From Undibacterium hunanense (GTDB taxonomy: Bacteria; Pseudomonadota; Gammaproteobacteria; Burkholderiales; Burkholderiaceae_D): a stretch of 64,000 nt of DNA. Position 1 is the stretch's first letter. Every line of letters begins with the position of its first letter. Positions 55,167-62,646 of the stretch are shown in pieces. Position numbers and translations under genes: made by a program. The DNA lies in assembly GCF_014284335.1 (NCBI RefSeq), contig NZ_JACOGF010000001.1, positions 310,001-374,000 on the forward strand, written 5' to 3'. Below the pieces are notes generated by a model. That model saw nothing but the letters and a program-made list of their open reading frames with translations. It was not told where the DNA came from and ran no database searches.

Positions 55167-55973
55167 ATGATTTTCCAGGTAAACGGCCAGGCAGCCTATT
55201 GTTATACCGGTGGTAAAAACTTCAATCCGGCGCAGACGACGGTAGTATTCATTCACGGTGCCCAGAATGATCATTCAGTGTGGGGCTTACAGACACGTTA
55301 TTTTGCCCATCACGGTTTTAATGTGCTGGCAGTTGACTTGCCAGGCCATGGACGCAGCAAAGGGGCAGCACTGAGCAGTGTGGAACAGATGGCTGACTGG
55401 CTGCTTGCCTTGCTGGATGTGGCAGGCTTAGAACAAGCCATGCTGGTTGGACACAGCATGGGTTCACTGATCGCACTGGAAGCCTGCTACAAGGCTCCAG
55501 CACGTGTCAGCAGGCTGGTCATGGTTGGTACTGCCTACCCCATGCGGGTATCGGATACGTTACTGAATGCGGCACGTGACGAAGAACAAACAGCCATTGA
55601 TATGGTAAATATCTGGTCACACACTTCGATTGCGCACAAACCATCCTGTCCGGGCCCGGGATTTTACGTCATGGGCGTCAGTCAGCGTTTGATGCAGCGC
55701 ATTTCGGCCATCAATCCGGATAAAGTATTCCACACCGACTTTGCCGCCTGCAACGCCTATGCCAATGGTGAAGTGGCTGCGCTCTCAGTAGCTTGCCCTA
55801 CTTTGTTTATTCTCGGCAAGAAAGACATGATGACACCTGTCAAGGCCAGCCTTGTCCTGAGTAAGGCCATCGCCCACAGCCGGCAAATCATCATAGAAAA
55901 CTGCGGTCATTCGCTGATGGCAGAACAGGCCGATCAGGTTTTGACGGCCTTACTCGACTTTGCCAGGGTTTGA
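55167..55973 (+). CDS. Alpha/beta hydrolase
   Basis: A 268-residue alpha/beta-hydrolase-fold protein with the oxyanion HGAQNDH loop (about 30-36), the nucleophile elbow GHSMGS (Ser97) and the C-terminal His in NCGHSLM. It starts one base after metY and overlaps no other gene, so it is part of that operon. The substrate is unknown; an ester or thioester is plausible. The LysE exporter starts 16 bases later. Confidence 0.87.
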   Translation: MIFQVNGQAAYCYTGGKNFNPAQTTVVFIHGAQNDHSVWGLQTRYFAHHGFNVLAVDLPGHGRSKGAALSSVEQMADWLLALLDVAGLEQAMLVGHSMGSLIALEACYKAPARVSRLVMVGTAYPMRVSDTLLNAARDEEQTAIDMVNIWSHTSIAHKPSCPGPGFYVMGVSQRLMQRISAINPDKVFHTDFAACNAYANGEVAALSVACPTLFILGKKDMMTPVKASLVLSKAIAHSRQIIIENCGHSLMAEQADQVLTALLDFARV

Positions 55974-55989
55974 TAATGACGGTAAAAAG

Positions 55990-56613
55990 ATGGCGATGAC
56001 ACTGGAAAGCTGGGCATTATTCACCGCCACCGAAGCGGCCCTGTCGCTATCGCCCGGCCCGGCAGTGATGATGGTGGTAGCGTATGGCATAGCACGCGGC
56101 TGGCGCACATCACTGTTTGTGACGCTAGGGATATTGACGGGCAATGCAATTTATTTTGCAGTATCGGCGACCGGCATAGGTTCGCTGATACTGGCTTCAC
56201 CCAAAGTATTCATGGCGATCAAGTATCTGGGTGCGGCTTATCTTGTCTATCTTGGCTTGTCGGCCATTTTTGGCAAGCCATCACCGCTGACCATATCCAA
56301 ACTGGATGGAGTGGCGCTCAGCGGCAGAAGGATATTCAGCAGCGCATTGATGCTGCAATTGACCAACCCCAAAACCCTGCTGATGTTCGTGGCGATATTG
56401 CCGCAATTTATCGACCCCAAAGAACCGGTCGGTGTGCAGATGATGATACTGGCAGCCTGTTCCATCATCCCGGAATTTTTTATCCTGCTGGGATATGGCA
56501 TGCTGGCCAGCAAAGCCAGCCATTGGGCAACGCAGGAAAGGTATGCGGTCATTACAGAAAGAATTGCCGGCACCCTGGTGACAGGGGCCGGTATCATGGT
56601 CGCACTGGTTTAA
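55990..56613 (+). CDS. LysE/RhtB family amino-acid exporter
   Basis: A 207-residue inner-membrane protein with about six hydrophobic segments. Its opening LSLSPGPAVMMVVAYGIARG is the LysE/RhtB signature. Such proteins export homoserine, threonine, lysine or related amino acids. The ATG at 55990 is preferred to an in-frame TTG that overlaps the hydrolase gene. It follows metY and the hydrolase on the same strand, so export of a methionine-pathway intermediate is a reasonable guess. Confidence 0.88.
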   Translation: MAMTLESWALFTATEAALSLSPGPAVMMVVAYGIARGWRTSLFVTLGILTGNAIYFAVSATGIGSLILASPKVFMAIKYLGAAYLVYLGLSAIFGKPSPLTISKLDGVALSGRRIFSSALMLQLTNPKTLLMFVAILPQFIDPKEPVGVQMMILAACSIIPEFFILLGYGMLASKASHWATQERYAVITERIAGTLVTGAGIMVALV

Positions 56614-56632
56614 TTCTGTATGCCTGGCGTTC

Positions 56633-57703
56633 TTATGCGTGGGCGGGCAAGCGCTGGTTCAGGCCTGCCAGATAATCTGCCCTGAAACGGCGCAGGACAT
56701 AGTCCTTGTAATTGTCATGTTTGAGTGTGTCCCAGGCCACTTCCCTGCCCTTGCAGGATTTTTCCTTGGCGGCGGTGAGTACCTCCTGGCTCAGTTCCAG
56801 GTTGGCATCGGTCATCAATTCATAGCCATACAGTTGCATGAATTCCTTGGTCAGGCTTTCTATTACTTCAATTTCGCGCATGCTCAACTGCTGTTTGAAC
56901 TTGTCCTTGTTCGCCATCACCGGCGGGAAGCGATTTGTTTCCCACAGGGCTGACATATGAGATATTTGCTGCGCCTCGGCAGAATGGCTGACATCCAGCA
57001 TTTCCGGCAAAAATGTGATGCCAAAAAACGTGCAAATCGCCCGCAAGACCGTTTCCTGGTTACTTAAAAAATCTTCATAGCGTATCGTCAATACCTGATC
57101 AGGGTGCCGCTGTATGATATCGCGCGACAACTGATGCGCTTCCAGCCAGGCCATGGCGTTCAGGGTGGAATCATAATCATGAATGATGGCCTTGTTCATG
57201 GACGCAACCTGGGCCCTGGGGTCCCGTACCACGTTCAGGAACAGCATATTCGGAAATATCTGCAAAAGCTCTTCTGCGTAATGCACGCTGTCCAGCGATT
57301 TATCCATGACGATGCTGGCATGGTGATGTTCGCCCGTGCGTAGCAGCAGCTCCCACAATATCCTGTGCACGCTACGTTTGTCGTTCCGGATCGATTCAAA
57401 GACATCCACGGGATCAAATACCATGTCTTTCCATTTCACCATGCTGGCAGCCTGCAAGCCAACCACATCAACCACCAGACGGAAATAGTTTTCATCATCC
57501 TCCAGATCGCCGTAGCGTGGAACCAAAGGCATGAAATCGATAATATGCAGGGGATAAGGCGAATAAAATTCTTCGCTATTGTTCAGACGCAAACGCAGGG
57601 CATGGCTGCCACAACGTCGCAACGGTATCATCAGCACAGGAGTTGGTCGCTTACTGGCGGTTGCCACTTCTTTTACGCTGGTCACACTATCTGATCCTGC
57701 CAT
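56633..57703 (-). CDS. PAPS-dependent sulfotransferase
   Basis: A 356-residue cytosolic sulfotransferase. The 5'-phosphosulfate-binding loop is visible as PLRRCGSHALRL (27-38), and the 3'-phosphate-binding motif as RDPRAQVAS (160-168). It transfers sulfuryl groups from PAPS to an unknown acceptor and releases PAP. It is the last gene of a minus-strand cluster with an APS kinase and a DHH phosphoesterase, 86 bases from the latter. The acceptor (polysaccharide, lipid or small molecule) cannot be told. Confidence 0.85.
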   Translation of the reverse strand: MAGSDSVTSVKEVATASKRPTPVLMIPLRRCGSHALRLRLNNSEEFYSPYPLHIIDFMPLVPRYGDLEDDENYFRLVVDVVGLQAASMVKWKDMVFDPVDVFESIRNDKRSVHRILWELLLRTGEHHHASIVMDKSLDSVHYAEELLQIFPNMLFLNVVRDPRAQVASMNKAIIHDYDSTLNAMAWLEAHQLSRDIIQRHPDQVLTIRYEDFLSNQETVLRAICTFFGITFLPEMLDVSHSAEAQQISHMSALWETNRFPPVMANKDKFKQQLSMREIEVIESLTKEFMQLYGYELMTDANLELSQEVLTAAKEKSCKGREVAWDTLKHDNYKDYVLRRFRADYLAGLNQRLPAHA

Positions 57704-57789
57704 GATGCTCTCCCCATGCTTAAGTTTTGAAAGGGTTTGAAATATCTGAAAGGTCTGAACCCGAAAGATCGCCTTACTTTCCTGCCTGC

Positions 57790-58800
57790 TTATGACAGGC
57801 TGAACTGCTGTTTTTCCATTTTTTCGAAATAAGCAATAAAAGTTTGTATGAAACTGTCCACTTCCGATGCCGGTAAATGATTAATGCCACCTGCACCACG
57901 TCGCCCACCGCCACTGACAAACGCAGTACAGAATTGATTTGCCGGGCAATTGTCGGTATCACCTGAACGTATGCTGACAACATAACTGCCATCCGGCTTT
58001 GCCGTCAGCACGGCAAAGGATTTGCCAGGCTGTTCCTGTGTTAACTGATTCGCCAGGATGCCTGAAACACGCCTGGCCCAGGCTTGTGCGGGCAAGACAT
58101 AGACGGCAGACAATTCACTTTGCGTAGAGGCCCGCAAGCCCTGCATGGCAGCCATGTCGCTGGCATACGCATCACGTAGTACAGAAAACGGCACGGCATT
58201 ATTCACAAAATCAAAAGGATCCAGATAGGCATGTATTGCCCCGTACAAAACTGCGGGATGAAAATGCAAGTCATCCACCGATTCGCCATAAGCGTTGTAA
58301 TTGAACAGTGTGCCAAGCTCTTGCAATTGGCTGCATTGCGATGTATCCAGGCCAGCCTGACTGGCAATGGCCTGGGCTACTTCCGGTAAATTGTCACCAT
58401 AGGCGGCGACTACTGCCCATTTCCAATGTTTGCCATTCAAATGACGATTAACCAGTATGCTGCTGCAGACATCTGCCGCCATATCGCAATGCAGACGCAG
58501 GCGTTCATGCGTAAAAGCCTGCGTCGCAGCATGGTGATCGAAATACGTAATCTCTGCACCGGCAGCAAGGTGCTGGCGCAATGCCACGATATTGCTGTCC
58601 AGAGAAATATCCAGCACAGTCAGCAGGTCACCCAACTGTGATTTGAAACGACTCAGCAAATCGATATCCCGCTTGGCACCGGTAATTAATTTCGCCTGAC
58701 GCGGTTCTGCCAGCCTGAGTTGATGCAAGGCACAAATGCCATCAGCATCACCATTGAATACATCATAGGCATGTACAGAATTGTTGGTATCGGCAAACAT
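57790..58800 (-). CDS. DHH-family phosphoesterase, possible PAP phosphatase
   Basis: A 336-residue DHH/DHHA1 protein. The metal-binding DADG (18-21) and DHH (88-90) motifs are intact. The C-terminal DHHA1 motif appears as GGGRRGAGG (297-305), where the usual His of GGGHxxAAG is Arg. The DHH protein NrnA of Bacillus dephosphorylates PAP, and the gene lies between APS kinase and sulfotransferase, so a PAP-recycling role is an attractive inference. The ATG at 58800 is 11 bases after the cysC stop; an in-frame GTG at 58827 would overlap cysC. Confidence 0.82.
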   Translation of the reverse strand: MFADTNNSVHAYDVFNGDADGICALHQLRLAEPRQAKLITGAKRDIDLLSRFKSQLGDLLTVLDISLDSNIVALRQHLAAGAEITYFDHHAATQAFTHERLRLHCDMAADVCSSILVNRHLNGKHWKWAVVAAYGDNLPEVAQAIASQAGLDTSQCSQLQELGTLFNYNAYGESVDDLHFHPAVLYGAIHAYLDPFDFVNNAVPFSVLRDAYASDMAAMQGLRASTQSELSAVYVLPAQAWARRVSGILANQLTQEQPGKSFAVLTAKPDGSYVVSIRSGDTDNCPANQFCTAFVSGGGRRGAGGINHLPASEVDSFIQTFIAYFEKMEKQQFSLS

Positions 58801-58811
58801 GGATTTTCCCG

Positions 58812-59507
58812 CTATTTGATATAACACAATCCTATCAGGTGCCTGTACAGTTTTTCTGCTGCTTCTTCTATCGTAAACATTTCAGAATTGATTTCCAGAT
58901 CAGGGTCCTGCGGTGCTTCATACGGTGCAGAGATACCTGTAAATTCTGGTATCTCGCCCCTGCGTGCTTTTGCATACAGACCTTTGGGGTCACGTCTTTC
59001 GCAGACCACACCAGGCGTGCTGACATGCACTTCGATGAAACGTTCTTCACTGATGATTTCTTTGGCCATGGCCCGGTCAGCCTGAAATGGAGAAATAAAA
59101 GCCGTAATAACGATCATGCCGGCTTCATTGAGCAGGTGGGCAACCTCTGCAGCCCGGCGGATGTTTTCACGCCTGTCATGCGGTGAAAACCCCAGATCAC
59201 TGTTAAGGTGATGCCGCAGGTTATCCCCGTCCACCACGAAGCAGCAATGGCCACGTTCCAGCAAGAGTTTTTCCAGTGCGTATGCCAGCGTCGATTTACC
59301 CGCACCACTCAAGCCAGTCAGCCACAAGGTCGCTGGACTCTGGCGCAACAAGCGTTCGCGTGCCATCGAAGTGACAGCGCCGTAATGCCAGTTGATGTCT
59401 CCCACACGGGACTGTGGATTGTGCACAAAACGCCCCATTTTGGTCCTGCGTTCAACCTGCACATTTTCTTTCGGCGCTTCGTCCAGTACTCTTGTGCTTA
59501 CTTGCAT
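58812..59507 (-). CDS. cysC: Adenylylsulfate (APS) kinase
   Basis: A 231-residue APS kinase making PAPS from APS and ATP. The P-loop GLSGAGKST (65-73), the DGDNLRHHLNSDLGFS substrate stretch, ISPFQADR and CERRDPKGLYAKARRGEI match E. coli CysC closely. The N-terminus is about 30 residues longer than in E. coli. GGGAG lies nine bases ahead of the ATG. No cysD/cysN lies nearby, so the kinase here probably serves the sulfotransferase encoded in the same cluster rather than assimilation. Confidence 0.94.
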   Translation of the reverse strand: MQVSTRVLDEAPKENVQVERRTKMGRFVHNPQSRVGDINWHYGAVTSMARERLLRQSPATLWLTGLSGAGKSTLAYALEKLLLERGHCCFVVDGDNLRHHLNSDLGFSPHDRRENIRRAAEVAHLLNEAGMIVITAFISPFQADRAMAKEIISEERFIEVHVSTPGVVCERRDPKGLYAKARRGEIPEFTGISAPYEAPQDPDLEINSEMFTIEEAAEKLYRHLIGLCYIK

Positions 59508-59544
59508 TTTCAGACTCCCGGTTCAACAAAGACGATGTTTACTT

Positions 59545-61296
59545 TCAGAATTCTTCCCAATCCTGCGTGTCCGTTTTGCGGACAGCACTGGCACTACCTG
59601 TGCTGGTAACCCGTTTGATCTGTTTGACATTTGCCTTGTTTTTTTCCATCGTCGCCTTCTTGATCAGCGAGACGACTTTTTTATCGTTGACCATCGGCTC
59701 ACGCCAGCCAGGTTCCGCAAATTTTTCGGATGCAAGCTGGAAGGTGCTGACCAGCGATGACAAATCGTCTGCCTGATTTTGCAAGGCACTGGCAGCAGCG
59801 GCGGCTTCTTCCACCAGAGCAGCATTTTGCTGGGTCACATCATCCATCTGCACGATGGCTTCGTTGATTTGCTCTATGCCTGCGGTCTGTTCCTGACTGG
59901 CCATCATGATTTCAGTCATGATGCTGGTCACGCGTTTGATACTGGCGACGATTTCTTCCATCGTGACACCCGCCTGATCAACCAGTTTTGCGCCGATATC
60001 CACCTTGGTGACGGAATCATCAATCAGGAACTTGATTTCACGCGCTGCCTCGGCTGAACGTTGCGCAAGATTGCGCACTTCTGTTGCTACCACGGCAAAG
60101 CCACGCCCCTGCTCACCCGCACGTGCAGCTTCCACTGCCGCGTTCAATGCGAGAATATTGGTTTGAAATGCAATGCCATCAATCACACCGATGATGTCAA
60201 CAATCTTGCGGGAAGATGTGTTGATGGAACCCATGGTTTGCACCACCTCGGACACCACAGTGCCGCCCTTGACAGCCACATCCGACGCAGATTGCGCCAG
60301 CACATTGGCCTGTCTTGCACTGTCCGCATTTTGTTTGACTGTCGAAGTCAGCTCTTCCATCGATGAAGCCGTTTCTTCGAGCGAGCCAGCCTGTTGTTCA
60401 GTGCGTGAAGACAGATCCATATTGCCGGATGCAATCTGCCTGGATGCAGTTGCTATCGTATCGGTACCTGAACGTACCTGCCCAACGATACTGGCCAGCC
60501 CATTTTGCATTTCCTGCATGGCATGCATGAGACTATGCGTATCCTTGTCAGCCAGGCGTATCGGTACCGACAGATCGCCTGCTGCAATTCTTTCGGCAAT
60601 CGTAACGGCATAACGTGGTTCGCCACCCAGTTGTTTCAACAGACTCCTGACGATCATCAAGGCAGCCAGCACACCGACAAACAGGGCAACCGCACCAAAT
60701 ATATACATGAGCTTATTGGCACTGGCGTAATCAAGCTCTGCCTGCGCAATGGCATCTGTGTTCTGTTTTTCTTCCAGAGCAATCATGTCACTCAGCAATT
60801 CCCACCATTTTTTCTGTATGGGGCGGAATTCAAAACGCAGCATCTTGTATGCTTCCGGGCCTTGCTTGTTGACACCTAATTCAGCGGCTTTGGCGATGAA
60901 AGGTTCAGACAGTCTGGCCTGGTCGCGAATACGGCCCAGCAAGGCCAGCTCTTCTGAGGATGCATTGGAATCTCCCTTGAGCATCTTGGTGAGTTTTTCT
61001 TCGGCATCAGCATATTTGCCTGCCTGCGCCTTGATACGATTGACCTCTATCTGAATTTCAGCAGCATCCGACAAAAGGATAAGATTGCGCAAGGCCAGGG
61101 CACGCTCGGTCACCGTCAGGTACATGGTCGAGGCCAGCTTGGATTGCACATTATTGACGTTGGCAATTTCTTCCATGCGCTGATGCATCTTTGCCATATA
61201 CGTGGTCCCCAACAACAAAACCACCAGCAACAAGCTCAACACCAGTCCAAAACCAGTAATAAGCCTGGTCGAGACTTTCAAGTTTTCAATCTTCAT
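59545..61296 (-). CDS. Methyl-accepting chemotaxis protein with CheR/CheB-docking tail
   Basis: A 583-residue chemoreceptor. TM1 (about 10-32), a four-helix-bundle-type periplasmic domain, TM2 (about 193-215), HAMP, and the cytoplasmic signalling hairpin with tip [21 protein letters not shown] are visible. The protein ends DWEEF, a W-x-x-F pentapeptide like the NWETF tail that tethers CheR and CheB. The ATG at 61296 has GGGAGAA upstream; an in-frame TTG four codons earlier overlaps it. It is the first gene of the cluster leading to cysC, 37 bases away. The ligand is unknown. Confidence 0.92.
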
Positions 61297-61809
61297 GATT
61301 TCTCCCAAAAACGTGAGTCAGCTAAAAAGTTTGACTGGGTCCGGGCTTGCTGCAAATTAATGCATAAGCACATATTGCCACATAGATTTTGATGCCACAA
61401 GGAAATTATTAAATATTGTTAACTTGCATATTCCCGTTTAATATCAATTACTTAAACAGATTAATTATGACTATCACCATCAAATTCTTAGTAGCAAAAA
61501 CCAAATAACCATATTTGTTTAATAGATATCAGATTGCATCTTAGTGTATATTTTTATAATGTCAATATTGCAATTTGGTATTTTTATTAATTTAATTTCT
61601 CACCTGCATGTCCTGATCGCACGTTGCAAATTACATACACCTATAAGACCAGTTTAAAAAACCGGATGATTAATCCATAATAAAAATCTGAATGCACAGC
61701 AGTAGATTTAATGATTAATTTAGCGGTTGATTTAGCCATTAAAACCAAGCAGGGAAGCAGCTAAATCCAGATCAGTAAAATAAAAAATGATGGGCGAGGA
61801 GACAAGGCA
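61297..61809. other. AT-rich divergent intergenic region, no gene seen
   Basis: About 513 bases of markedly AT-rich DNA, with many TTAAT and ATTAAT runs, between the divergent chemoreceptor and DUF962 genes. No frame, tandem repeat or structured RNA stands out. It probably holds both promoters and possibly nucleoid-protein binding sites. Confidence 0.5.
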
Positions 61810-62142
61810 ATGGCAGAAAAATATACGAACTTTTCAGCGTTCTATGCGTTTTACCTGACAGAACACAGCAACCGGACCTGCCGGCAATTGCACTTTATGG
61901 GGTCCAGTCTGGTGCTGCTTTGCATAGCGCTGTTTGCGTACACCGGTAATGGCCAGTTTCTACTGGGTGCGCCTGTCTGCGGCTATGGTTTCGCCTGGAT
62001 AGGACATTTCATGTTTGAGAAAAACCGGCCCGCTTCTTTCAAACAGCCAGTGTTTTCCTTCATGGGGGATTGGGTCATGTACTGGCAATTACTGACTGGA
62101 AAAATCAGCTTTGGCCAGCAAGATACAACGCGCAAGACCTGA
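61810..62142 (+). CDS. DUF962/Mpo1-like membrane protein
   Basis: A 110-residue membrane protein with about three hydrophobic segments. It has the family marks FYAFYLTEHSNRTCRQLHFMGSSL and GYGFAWIGHFMFEKNRPASF, including the His residues. The yeast homologue Mpo1 is a dioxygenase in long-chain fatty acid alpha-oxidation; the bacterial role is unproven. GGAGACAAGGC precedes the ATG. Confidence 0.87.
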   Translation: MAEKYTNFSAFYAFYLTEHSNRTCRQLHFMGSSLVLLCIALFAYTGNGQFLLGAPVCGYGFAWIGHFMFEKNRPASFKQPVFSFMGDWVMYWQLLTGKISFGQQDTTRKT

Positions 62143-62148
62143 AATGAC

Positions 62149-62192
62149 AATGCCGCCCTGCCATCGCCCTGTCGTTTGGCCAGAGCGGCATT
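62149..62192. terminator. Inverted repeat between convergent DUF962 and GNAT genes
   Basis: AATGCCGC (62149-62156) is mirrored by GCGGCATT (62185-62192) across 28 bases. There is no T-tract in either direction, so termination by it is uncertain. Confidence 0.4.
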
Positions 62193-62211
62193 GCATCAGA
62201 ACAGAAAACAA

Positions 62212-62646
62212 TCAGGCAAACAGATACACCATGCTGACATGGGGAATGCCAGCTTCTTCAAACAGTTCACCGTCGCGCACAAAACCTTCCTTGAGATAGA
62301 AATTTTCTGCTGACTGCTGTGCATTCAGGCGCACGGCCTGATCACCCCTCGCCTGCGCCTCTTTCATCAAAGCGCGCAAAATCTTTGCCCCGACACCCTG
62401 GCCGCGTGCTTCTGCCAGTACAGCCATACGGCCAATATGTGCATCAGGCAAAAGGCGTCCTGTCCCAACTGCCTTGCCATCTGCATCATAGGCAACTGCA
62501 TGCACGCACTGTGCATCGGCTGCATCCCATTCCAGTTCAGCCGGAATCTTTTGTTCAATGACAAACACGGCATAGCGCACGCCCTGCGCATCTGTTTGCA
62601 GGGTAGCCCAGTCGGCAATGACCAGGCGCAGGTTTTCAGTATTCAT
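62212..62646 (-). CDS. GNAT family N-acetyltransferase
   Basis: A 144-residue acetyltransferase. The acetyl-CoA pyrophosphate-binding loop is visible as VLAEARGQGVGAKIL, and FVIEQKIPAELEWDAAD and NAQQSAENFYLKEGF are typical of ElaA/YjcF-type GNAT proteins. Its start overlaps the end of the thioesterase gene by four bases (ATGA), so they are coupled. The substrate is unknown. Confidence 0.88.
   Translation of the reverse strand: MNTENLRLVIADWATLQTDAQGVRYAVFVIEQKIPAELEWDAADAQCVHAVAYDADGKAVGTGRLLPDAHIGRMAVLAEARGQGVGAKILRALMKEAQARGDQAVRLNAQQSAENFYLKEGFVRDGELFEEAGIPHVSMVYLFA

Follow-up and report, generated by a model that had tools for sequence, protein, structure and literature searches.

A chemoreceptor gene precedes three sulfation genes in Undibacterium hunanense

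The window analysed here is a stretch of 64,000 nucleotides from the genome of Undibacterium hunanense (contig NZ_JACOGF010000001.1, positions 310,001 to 374,000). It contains a row of four genes on the minus strand that encode a chemoreceptor (methyl-accepting chemotaxis protein, MCP), the adenosine 5′-phosphosulfate (APS) kinase CysC, a phosphoesterase with DHH and DHHA1 domains, and a sulfotransferase (Table 1). An earlier note on this DNA had reported the last three of these genes with intervals of 11 and 86 bp, and both the coordinates and the open reading frames (ORFs) agree with that description. Overlooked, however, was the chemoreceptor gene, which is on that strand too and is separated by 37 bp from cysC, on its upstream side.

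These four genes probably constitute a sulfation operon headed by a chemoreceptor gene, in which the DHH enzyme is predicted to serve as a 3′-phosphatase of 3′-phosphoadenosine 5′-phosphate (PAP). APS would be supplied from elsewhere in the genome by CysDN (CysD was found and CysN is presumed), and CysC would phosphorylate it to 3′-phosphoadenosine 5′-phosphosulfate (PAPS). The sulfotransferase would then pass the sulfuryl group to an acceptor, releasing the toxic by-product PAP. Finally, the DHH/DHHA1 enzyme, whose invariant Asp and His residues probably bind two Mn2+ ions, would cleave the 3′-phosphate from PAP to yield AMP and inorganic phosphate, and this removal of PAP would relieve product inhibition. 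No candidate gene for a sulfation substrate was seen among the four genes of the locus.

Promoter and terminator scans of the locus gave no more matches than scans of shuffled sequences, and so lend no support to a single transcript; for this reason, the assignment of a four-gene operon is drawn from strand and spacing. The start codons in Table 1 are the preferred ones. The MCP frame is open as far as a TTG at 61308, but the ATG at 61296 is likelier, and the DHH gene is taken to begin with an ATG, the alternative being a GTG at 58827 that gives a longer ORF overlapping cysC. A HAMP domain in the receptor is detected by Pfam only below the cut-off. Elsewhere in the same genome there is a second, more divergent APS kinase gene (L149:7722-8321, contig C24).

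Table 1. Genes of the chemoreceptor and sulfation locus in the window.
Feature	Coordinates	Strand	Basis
Chemoreceptor (MCP)	59545..61296	minus	MCPsignal 185.7 bits (cut-off 34.6); 4HB_MCP_1 41 bits; C-terminal WEEF tail
cysC, APS kinase	58812..59507	minus	TIGR00455 238.5 bits (cut-off 138.7); APS_kinase (Pfam) 218.3 bits (cut-off 21.1)
DHH/DHHA1 phosphoesterase, putative PAP 3′-phosphatase	57790..58800	minus	Predicted fold, conserved motifs; GGGR
Sulfotransferase	56633..57703	minus	Sulfotransfer_3 (Pfam) 78.5 bits (cut-off 27); fold nearest polyketide and tyrosylprotein sulfotransferases

The predicted fold of the DHH protein resembles those of an archaeal PAP phosphatase and RecJ

The DHH protein scores below both of the relevant Pfam cut-offs (DHH, 17.2 versus 28.1 bits; DHHA1, 22.4 versus 25.9 bits). 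An AlphaFold2 model computed from an alignment of 79 family sequences has a clear two-domain DHH and DHHA1 fold (pLDDT 93.7, pTM 0.89). This alignment (A2) joins the 25 sequences of a first alignment (A1), which omits the split DHH pieces of genome G087, to 54 of 80 named loci with DHH relatives. Fifty-nine of the 80 had been picked by hand for diversity; L063, L100 and L105 were dropped because a stop falls early in the matched region, L093 because of unknown letters and L051 because its genome was already in A1. Metal-binding motifs I to IV (DxD, D, DHH and D) are intact, with D17, D19, D63, D87-H88-H89 and D135 invariant in all 79 sequences. R277 of motif VI and G296, G298 and R299 of a GGGR motif are likewise invariant in 79 of 79 (A2 numbering). 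The arginine of this last motif (codon 57901-57903) replaces the histidine of GGGH. Although the replacement pointed out in the earlier note is real, the accompanying suggestion of a substrate shift particular to this one protein was dropped, as arginine is a trait of the whole aligned family (79/79).

The best Foldseek match of the model is 8a8k (E 1.4e-13, TM 0.70), the PAP phosphatase of Methanothermococcus thermolithotrophicus (MtPAPP), and the two superimpose with a VIA Z of 25.2 and an rmsd of 3.1 over 297 residues. MtPAPP is reported to be the product of a putative phosphoesterase gene near those for ATP sulfurylase and APS kinase, and to release phosphate from PAP with high specificity (PMC10322725). 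A second archaeal enzyme, the pApase of Pyrococcus yayanosii (PyapApase), is likewise described as encoded alongside ATP sulfurylase and APS kinase. Its Lys287 occupies the position of His284 in NrnA, and the K287A exchange cuts kcat about a hundredfold (PMC8268124). A basic residue after GGG is therefore known from a PAP phosphatase of demonstrated activity.

The hydrolysis of PAP by DHH enzymes whose genes neighbour APS kinase genes is already known in archaea. The window protein and these enzymes have in common the DHH and DHHA1 fold, the set of metal ligands, a length of about 320 residues (8a8k), an APS kinase gene nearby and, in PyapApase, a basic residue where NrnA has histidine. The window protein differs in being bacterial, in carrying Arg rather than Lys, in its link to a sulfotransferase and in its low sequence identity to 8a8k. 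From the model, the metal ligands, the basic residue and the gene neighbourhoods described below, the DHH protein is best read as a putative PAP 3′-phosphatase. The bacterial GGGR family, its sulfotransferase operons and the operon headed by a chemoreceptor gene were not found in the open-licence literature searched.

DHH genes are associated with APS kinase genes

The DHH protein is a member of a large, mainly proteobacterial and unnamed family. At least 568 relatives were found, of which the named loci are the best 80, so that fractions based on them describe close relatives. An APS kinase domain is encoded within 2 kb of the DHH gene in 51 of 101 loci (the window, 20 loci from its taxonomic family and the 80 named loci), or in 48 of 98 after three genomes seen twice were dropped; four DHH loci without a cysC match (L150-L153) stand outside this count. 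Several arrangements occur: a separate cysC upstream, a CysN-CysC gene upstream (Nitrosomonas), a Sat-CysC gene downstream (Thiobacillus and others) and a divergent cysC (L063). The CysN-CysC and Sat-CysC fusions were confirmed with Pfam for L060 and L073 only. When adjacency to cysC was traced on a quick tree of DHH proteins, the label required 12 changes, losses counted among them, at least eight of which are forced by well-supported branches. The association is therefore not one inherited event.

A similar link is seen in 195 genomes of the same taxonomic family, 26 of which carry the DHH family and 79 an APS kinase (E < 1e-10; at most 18 candidates scored per genome, partial matches at contig ends in G022 and G043 included). 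APS kinase is present in 18 of the 26 DHH genomes versus 61 of the 169 others (Fisher p 0.002, relatedness uncorrected).

The DHH gene is usually the direct neighbour of a nearby cysC even where this sulfotransferase is missing, and PAPS has its 3′-phosphate in common with PAP. Both points would suit an enzyme that acts on PAPS or APS and tunes the PAPS pool instead of clearing PAP. However, no precedent for such an activity appears in the parts of PMC10322725 and PMC8268124 available, and the solved relative is reported there to be highly specific for PAP (PMC10322725), so that we consider this activity very unlikely.

Three further observations concern the family at large. In the Nitrosomonas loci L073, L085, L090, L091 and L123, genes for CysD, CysN/CysC and the DHH protein are followed by GalE-like and GalU-like genes (CysD, GalE and GalU were named by reading the sequences), a neighbourhood that suggests a sulfated polysaccharide. 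The DHH protein of L087, a record titled Rhodopirellula baltica (Planctomycetota), groups among gammaproteobacterial ones; gene transfer, a contig of foreign origin or mislabelling of the record could account for this. A search of plasmids found relatives of both the DHH protein and the sulfotransferase, every one below 60% identity.

The sulfotransferase occurs with APS kinase and often with the DHH protein

The earlier note credited the sulfotransferase with both PAPS-binding motifs. We take these to be the stretches PLRRCGSHALR and RDPRAQ..S.N, neither of which varies in any of 21 sequences. The nearest folds to its model (pLDDT 85) are those of polyketide and tyrosylprotein sulfotransferases (TPST), which are tied at Z 19.0-18.1, the next match being at 15.8. 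Close homologues are found in 13 of the 195 family genomes, a 14th match (G136) being weak. In a sample of the order (399 genomes), 27 have a match at E <= 0.001, only four of these being close (at least 68%).

RaxST of Xanthomonas, with RaxP and RaxQ, is a bacterial sulfotransferase with a dedicated PAPS supply. The window locus likewise joins a gene for PAPS synthesis to one for a sulfotransferase, whose nearest folds include those of tyrosylprotein sulfotransferases, and it differs from that system in its chemoreceptor and DHH genes.

All 13 family genomes with the sulfotransferase have an APS kinase and nine also have the DHH family, whereas four lack it, and the idea of the DHH protein as an obligate partner of the sulfotransferase was dropped. 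The two are found together in only nine of the 26 DHH genomes, so it is partly true that the DHH gene lives apart from the sulfotransferase, which the earlier note had named as evidence against its proposal. The self-contained make-use-recycle unit of three genes proposed there is likewise not upheld: the row starts with a chemoreceptor gene, the DHH protein is dispensed with in some genomes, and the genome's sole CysD match (TIGR02039) is on a different contig. The order of cysC, DHH and sulfotransferase genes, for which the note suggested a search across genomes, does recur, usually with an MCP gene upstream, but four loci lack the DHH gene (see below). DHH proteins linked to a sulfotransferase form almost one group, with 15 of 17 in a set of 19 (SH-aLRT 98) and the two from Gallionella elsewhere.

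Alternative substrates and the relation to CysQ

Several results weigh against the assignment of the DHH protein as a PAP phosphatase of sulfation. Its sequence identity to 8a8k is just 12%, and RecJ chains come next in the comparison at Z 24.6-24.2, which is within 1 Z of 8a8k and thus a tie. Eight of the 26 DHH genomes are without an APS kinase at the threshold used. No APS kinase is encoded nearby in 31 of the 80 named loci, each of the 31 having at least 2 kb on either side; nine further loci were too short to judge. At four loci (L145-L148) the order is MCP, cysC and sulfotransferase with no DHH gene, and their genomes have no CysQ above the cut-off.

The absence of a clear APS kinase from eight of the DHH genomes, together with the presence of RecJ, NrnA-type, GdpP and PggH structures in the same fold match lists, would fit an enzyme of the RecJ/NrnA type that degrades nanoRNA or dinucleotides (pApA, pGpG) and whose place beside cysC has some other cause. 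The fold and metal motifs are indeed common to NrnA, RecJ and the window protein. Sequence similarity, on the other hand, is weak: a profile reached NrnA/RecJ with a best E of 0.016, and a search of the PDB with the single DHH sequence found no relatives, although profile and fold comparison did give some. The histidine of GGG[H] is absent from the DHH family, and the association with APS kinase in several arrangements and across genomes argues for a different role. Moreover, Orn was found in 17 of 17 genomes searched, including seven DHH-positive ones without APS kinase, so that these genomes do not depend on the DHH enzyme for nanoRNase activity. Taken together, these data make an enzyme of this type rather unlikely.

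The DHH genomes that have no APS kinase imply that PAP derived from sulfation is hardly the substrate of the entire family; in these genomes PAP must arise in some other way, or the enzyme must act on something else. PAP is also produced when carrier proteins are primed from CoA, and this could be the source where APS kinase is missing. At one locus (L048:2311-8916), the DHH gene lies in a same-strand run with a gene, a few genes apart, for a protein with AMP-binding, carrier and acyltransferase domains. Where a DHH gene stands without cysC, a number of the adjacent genes drew no match in Pfam.

CysQ presumably catalyses the same reaction as that predicted for the DHH protein, and differs from it in family and, according to PMC10322725, in fold. 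In its domain searches the DHH protein had no match to TIGR01331 or the inositol monophosphatase family. Matches to TIGR01331 (CysQ) occur in 191 of the 195 family genomes and exceed the cut-off in just six, none of them DHH-positive (0/26) and none being U. hunanense itself; the sub-cut-off matches are probably other enzymes of the inositol phosphatase family. With CysQ in only six of 195 genomes, this non-overlap says little. Fifty-seven of the 79 APS kinase genomes have neither protein, and a replacement of CysQ by the DHH protein is therefore not a rule. The strict form of that idea was not borne out, while its other half, a role of the DHH protein in PAP hydrolysis, gains from the best fold match, tied with RecJ though it is, and from the APS kinase genes nearby. 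It also gains from a module of similar content in G572 (L185), where genes for CysQ (318 bits, cut-off 228.8), a CHR-family transporter (ChrA), Sat-CysC and a sulfotransferase 31% identical to that of the window stand in a row on one strand, with no DHH gene within the 16 kb around the module. If the DHH proteins are PAP phosphatases, an enzyme can be named for Proteobacteria that make PAPS without CysQ, and a function for a large family whose window member escapes the Pfam cut-offs.

Chemoreceptors at sulfation loci

The chemistry of sulfation is known, and it is the recurring pairing with a chemoreceptor that is surprising. An MCP gene immediately precedes cysC, in the same orientation, at 17 of 22 distinct sulfotransferase loci (one cut by the contig end and one split into two ORFs). 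The remaining five comprise G038, with MCP, CheA and CheW genes upstream; two Gallionella loci with MCP genes nearby in other places or orientations; G291, where no MCP gene lies within 18 kb of the cysC, DHH and sulfotransferase genes; and L052, which ends early and, for want of upstream room, was scored as lacking an MCP. Within 2 kb, an MCP gene was found at none of 82 DHH loci without this sulfotransferase, some of these contigs being short.

These receptors fall largely into a single group. With the ligand domain of the window receptor as query, a match of at least 48% identity is present in 15 of the 195 genomes. Twelve of the 15 have the sulfotransferase, and 12 of the 13 sulfotransferase genomes carry such a receptor. 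The Fisher p of 1.3e-15 for this co-occurrence is descriptive, with the 48% cut-off chosen post hoc and relatedness uncorrected, and below the 15 the list continues at 46% with no clear gap. For 12 of the 13 sulfotransferase genomes, no receptor genome-wide matches better than the one encoded at the sulfation locus; MCPs number 8-56 per genome (14 genomes). Eleven of these locus receptors reach at least 48%, with the second-best receptor at 43% or less, and that of G038 is 27% identical. In G019 the best match is on another contig, and the contig of the locus breaks inside the receptor. Arg69, Arg74, Arg158 and Arg162 of the four-helix-bundle (4HB) ligand domain are invariant in 15 aligned receptors.

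There is about an even chance that the chemoreceptor is a mere neighbour, an operon leader or hitchhiker with no part in sulfation. Against a mere neighbour stand the close receptors in nearly all sulfotransferase genomes, their identity with the best match in the genome and the layout of G038. There, the genes run from a response regulator through CheW, MCP, a hybrid CheA (1386 residues, with Hpt, kinase, CheW and receiver domains) and a second CheW to cysC, a fusion of DHH protein and chromate transporter (765 residues), the sulfotransferase and a last CheW, so that the sulfation genes sit between CheW genes of a che operon. Conversely, a tight coupling is disfavoured by the three of 15 genomes that have a close receptor relative and lack the sulfotransferase, and the lone sulfation genes of G291 likewise suit a bystander. 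At the Paraburkholderia and Trinickia loci L055 and L084, the receptor ligand domains (41% and 38% identical) are no closer than those of paralogues.

A conserved Undibacterium site, bordered by a hydrolase/LysE side and a GNAT gene (window 55167-62646), also disfavours a tight link. All four genes are present at this site in the window, L034, L036 and L056, but L188 and L189 have the receptor alone, L031 has cysC and the DHH gene alone, and L187 has neither; three of the ten loci compared (L190-L192) could not be assigned to it and were left uncounted. The receptor and the sulfation genes can therefore each persist alone, and for this reason a dedicated chemosensory and sulfation system, in which signalling by this 4HB receptor group is tied to a private sulfotransferase, can be put forward only tentatively. 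In such a system the receptor might sense a sulfated product or sulfate, or might steer the sulfation of a surface or signalling molecule. An anion transporter of the CHR type might be an accessory part, as might the DHH protein in the role of a new bacterial PAP phosphatase. The presence of a chemoreceptor gene beside a sulfotransferase gene raises the question of whether sulfation feeds into, or responds to, chemosensory signalling, which was not found discussed in the open-licence literature searched.

Genes for CHR-family transporters are found beside the sulfotransferase or its distant kin at L040, L086, L185 and L186, where, by the likeness of chromate to sulfate, their products may carry sulfate. 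At L035 (8004-10298), one ORF of 765 residues within a che operon fuses the DHH phosphoesterase to a pair of chromate transporter (CHR) domains.

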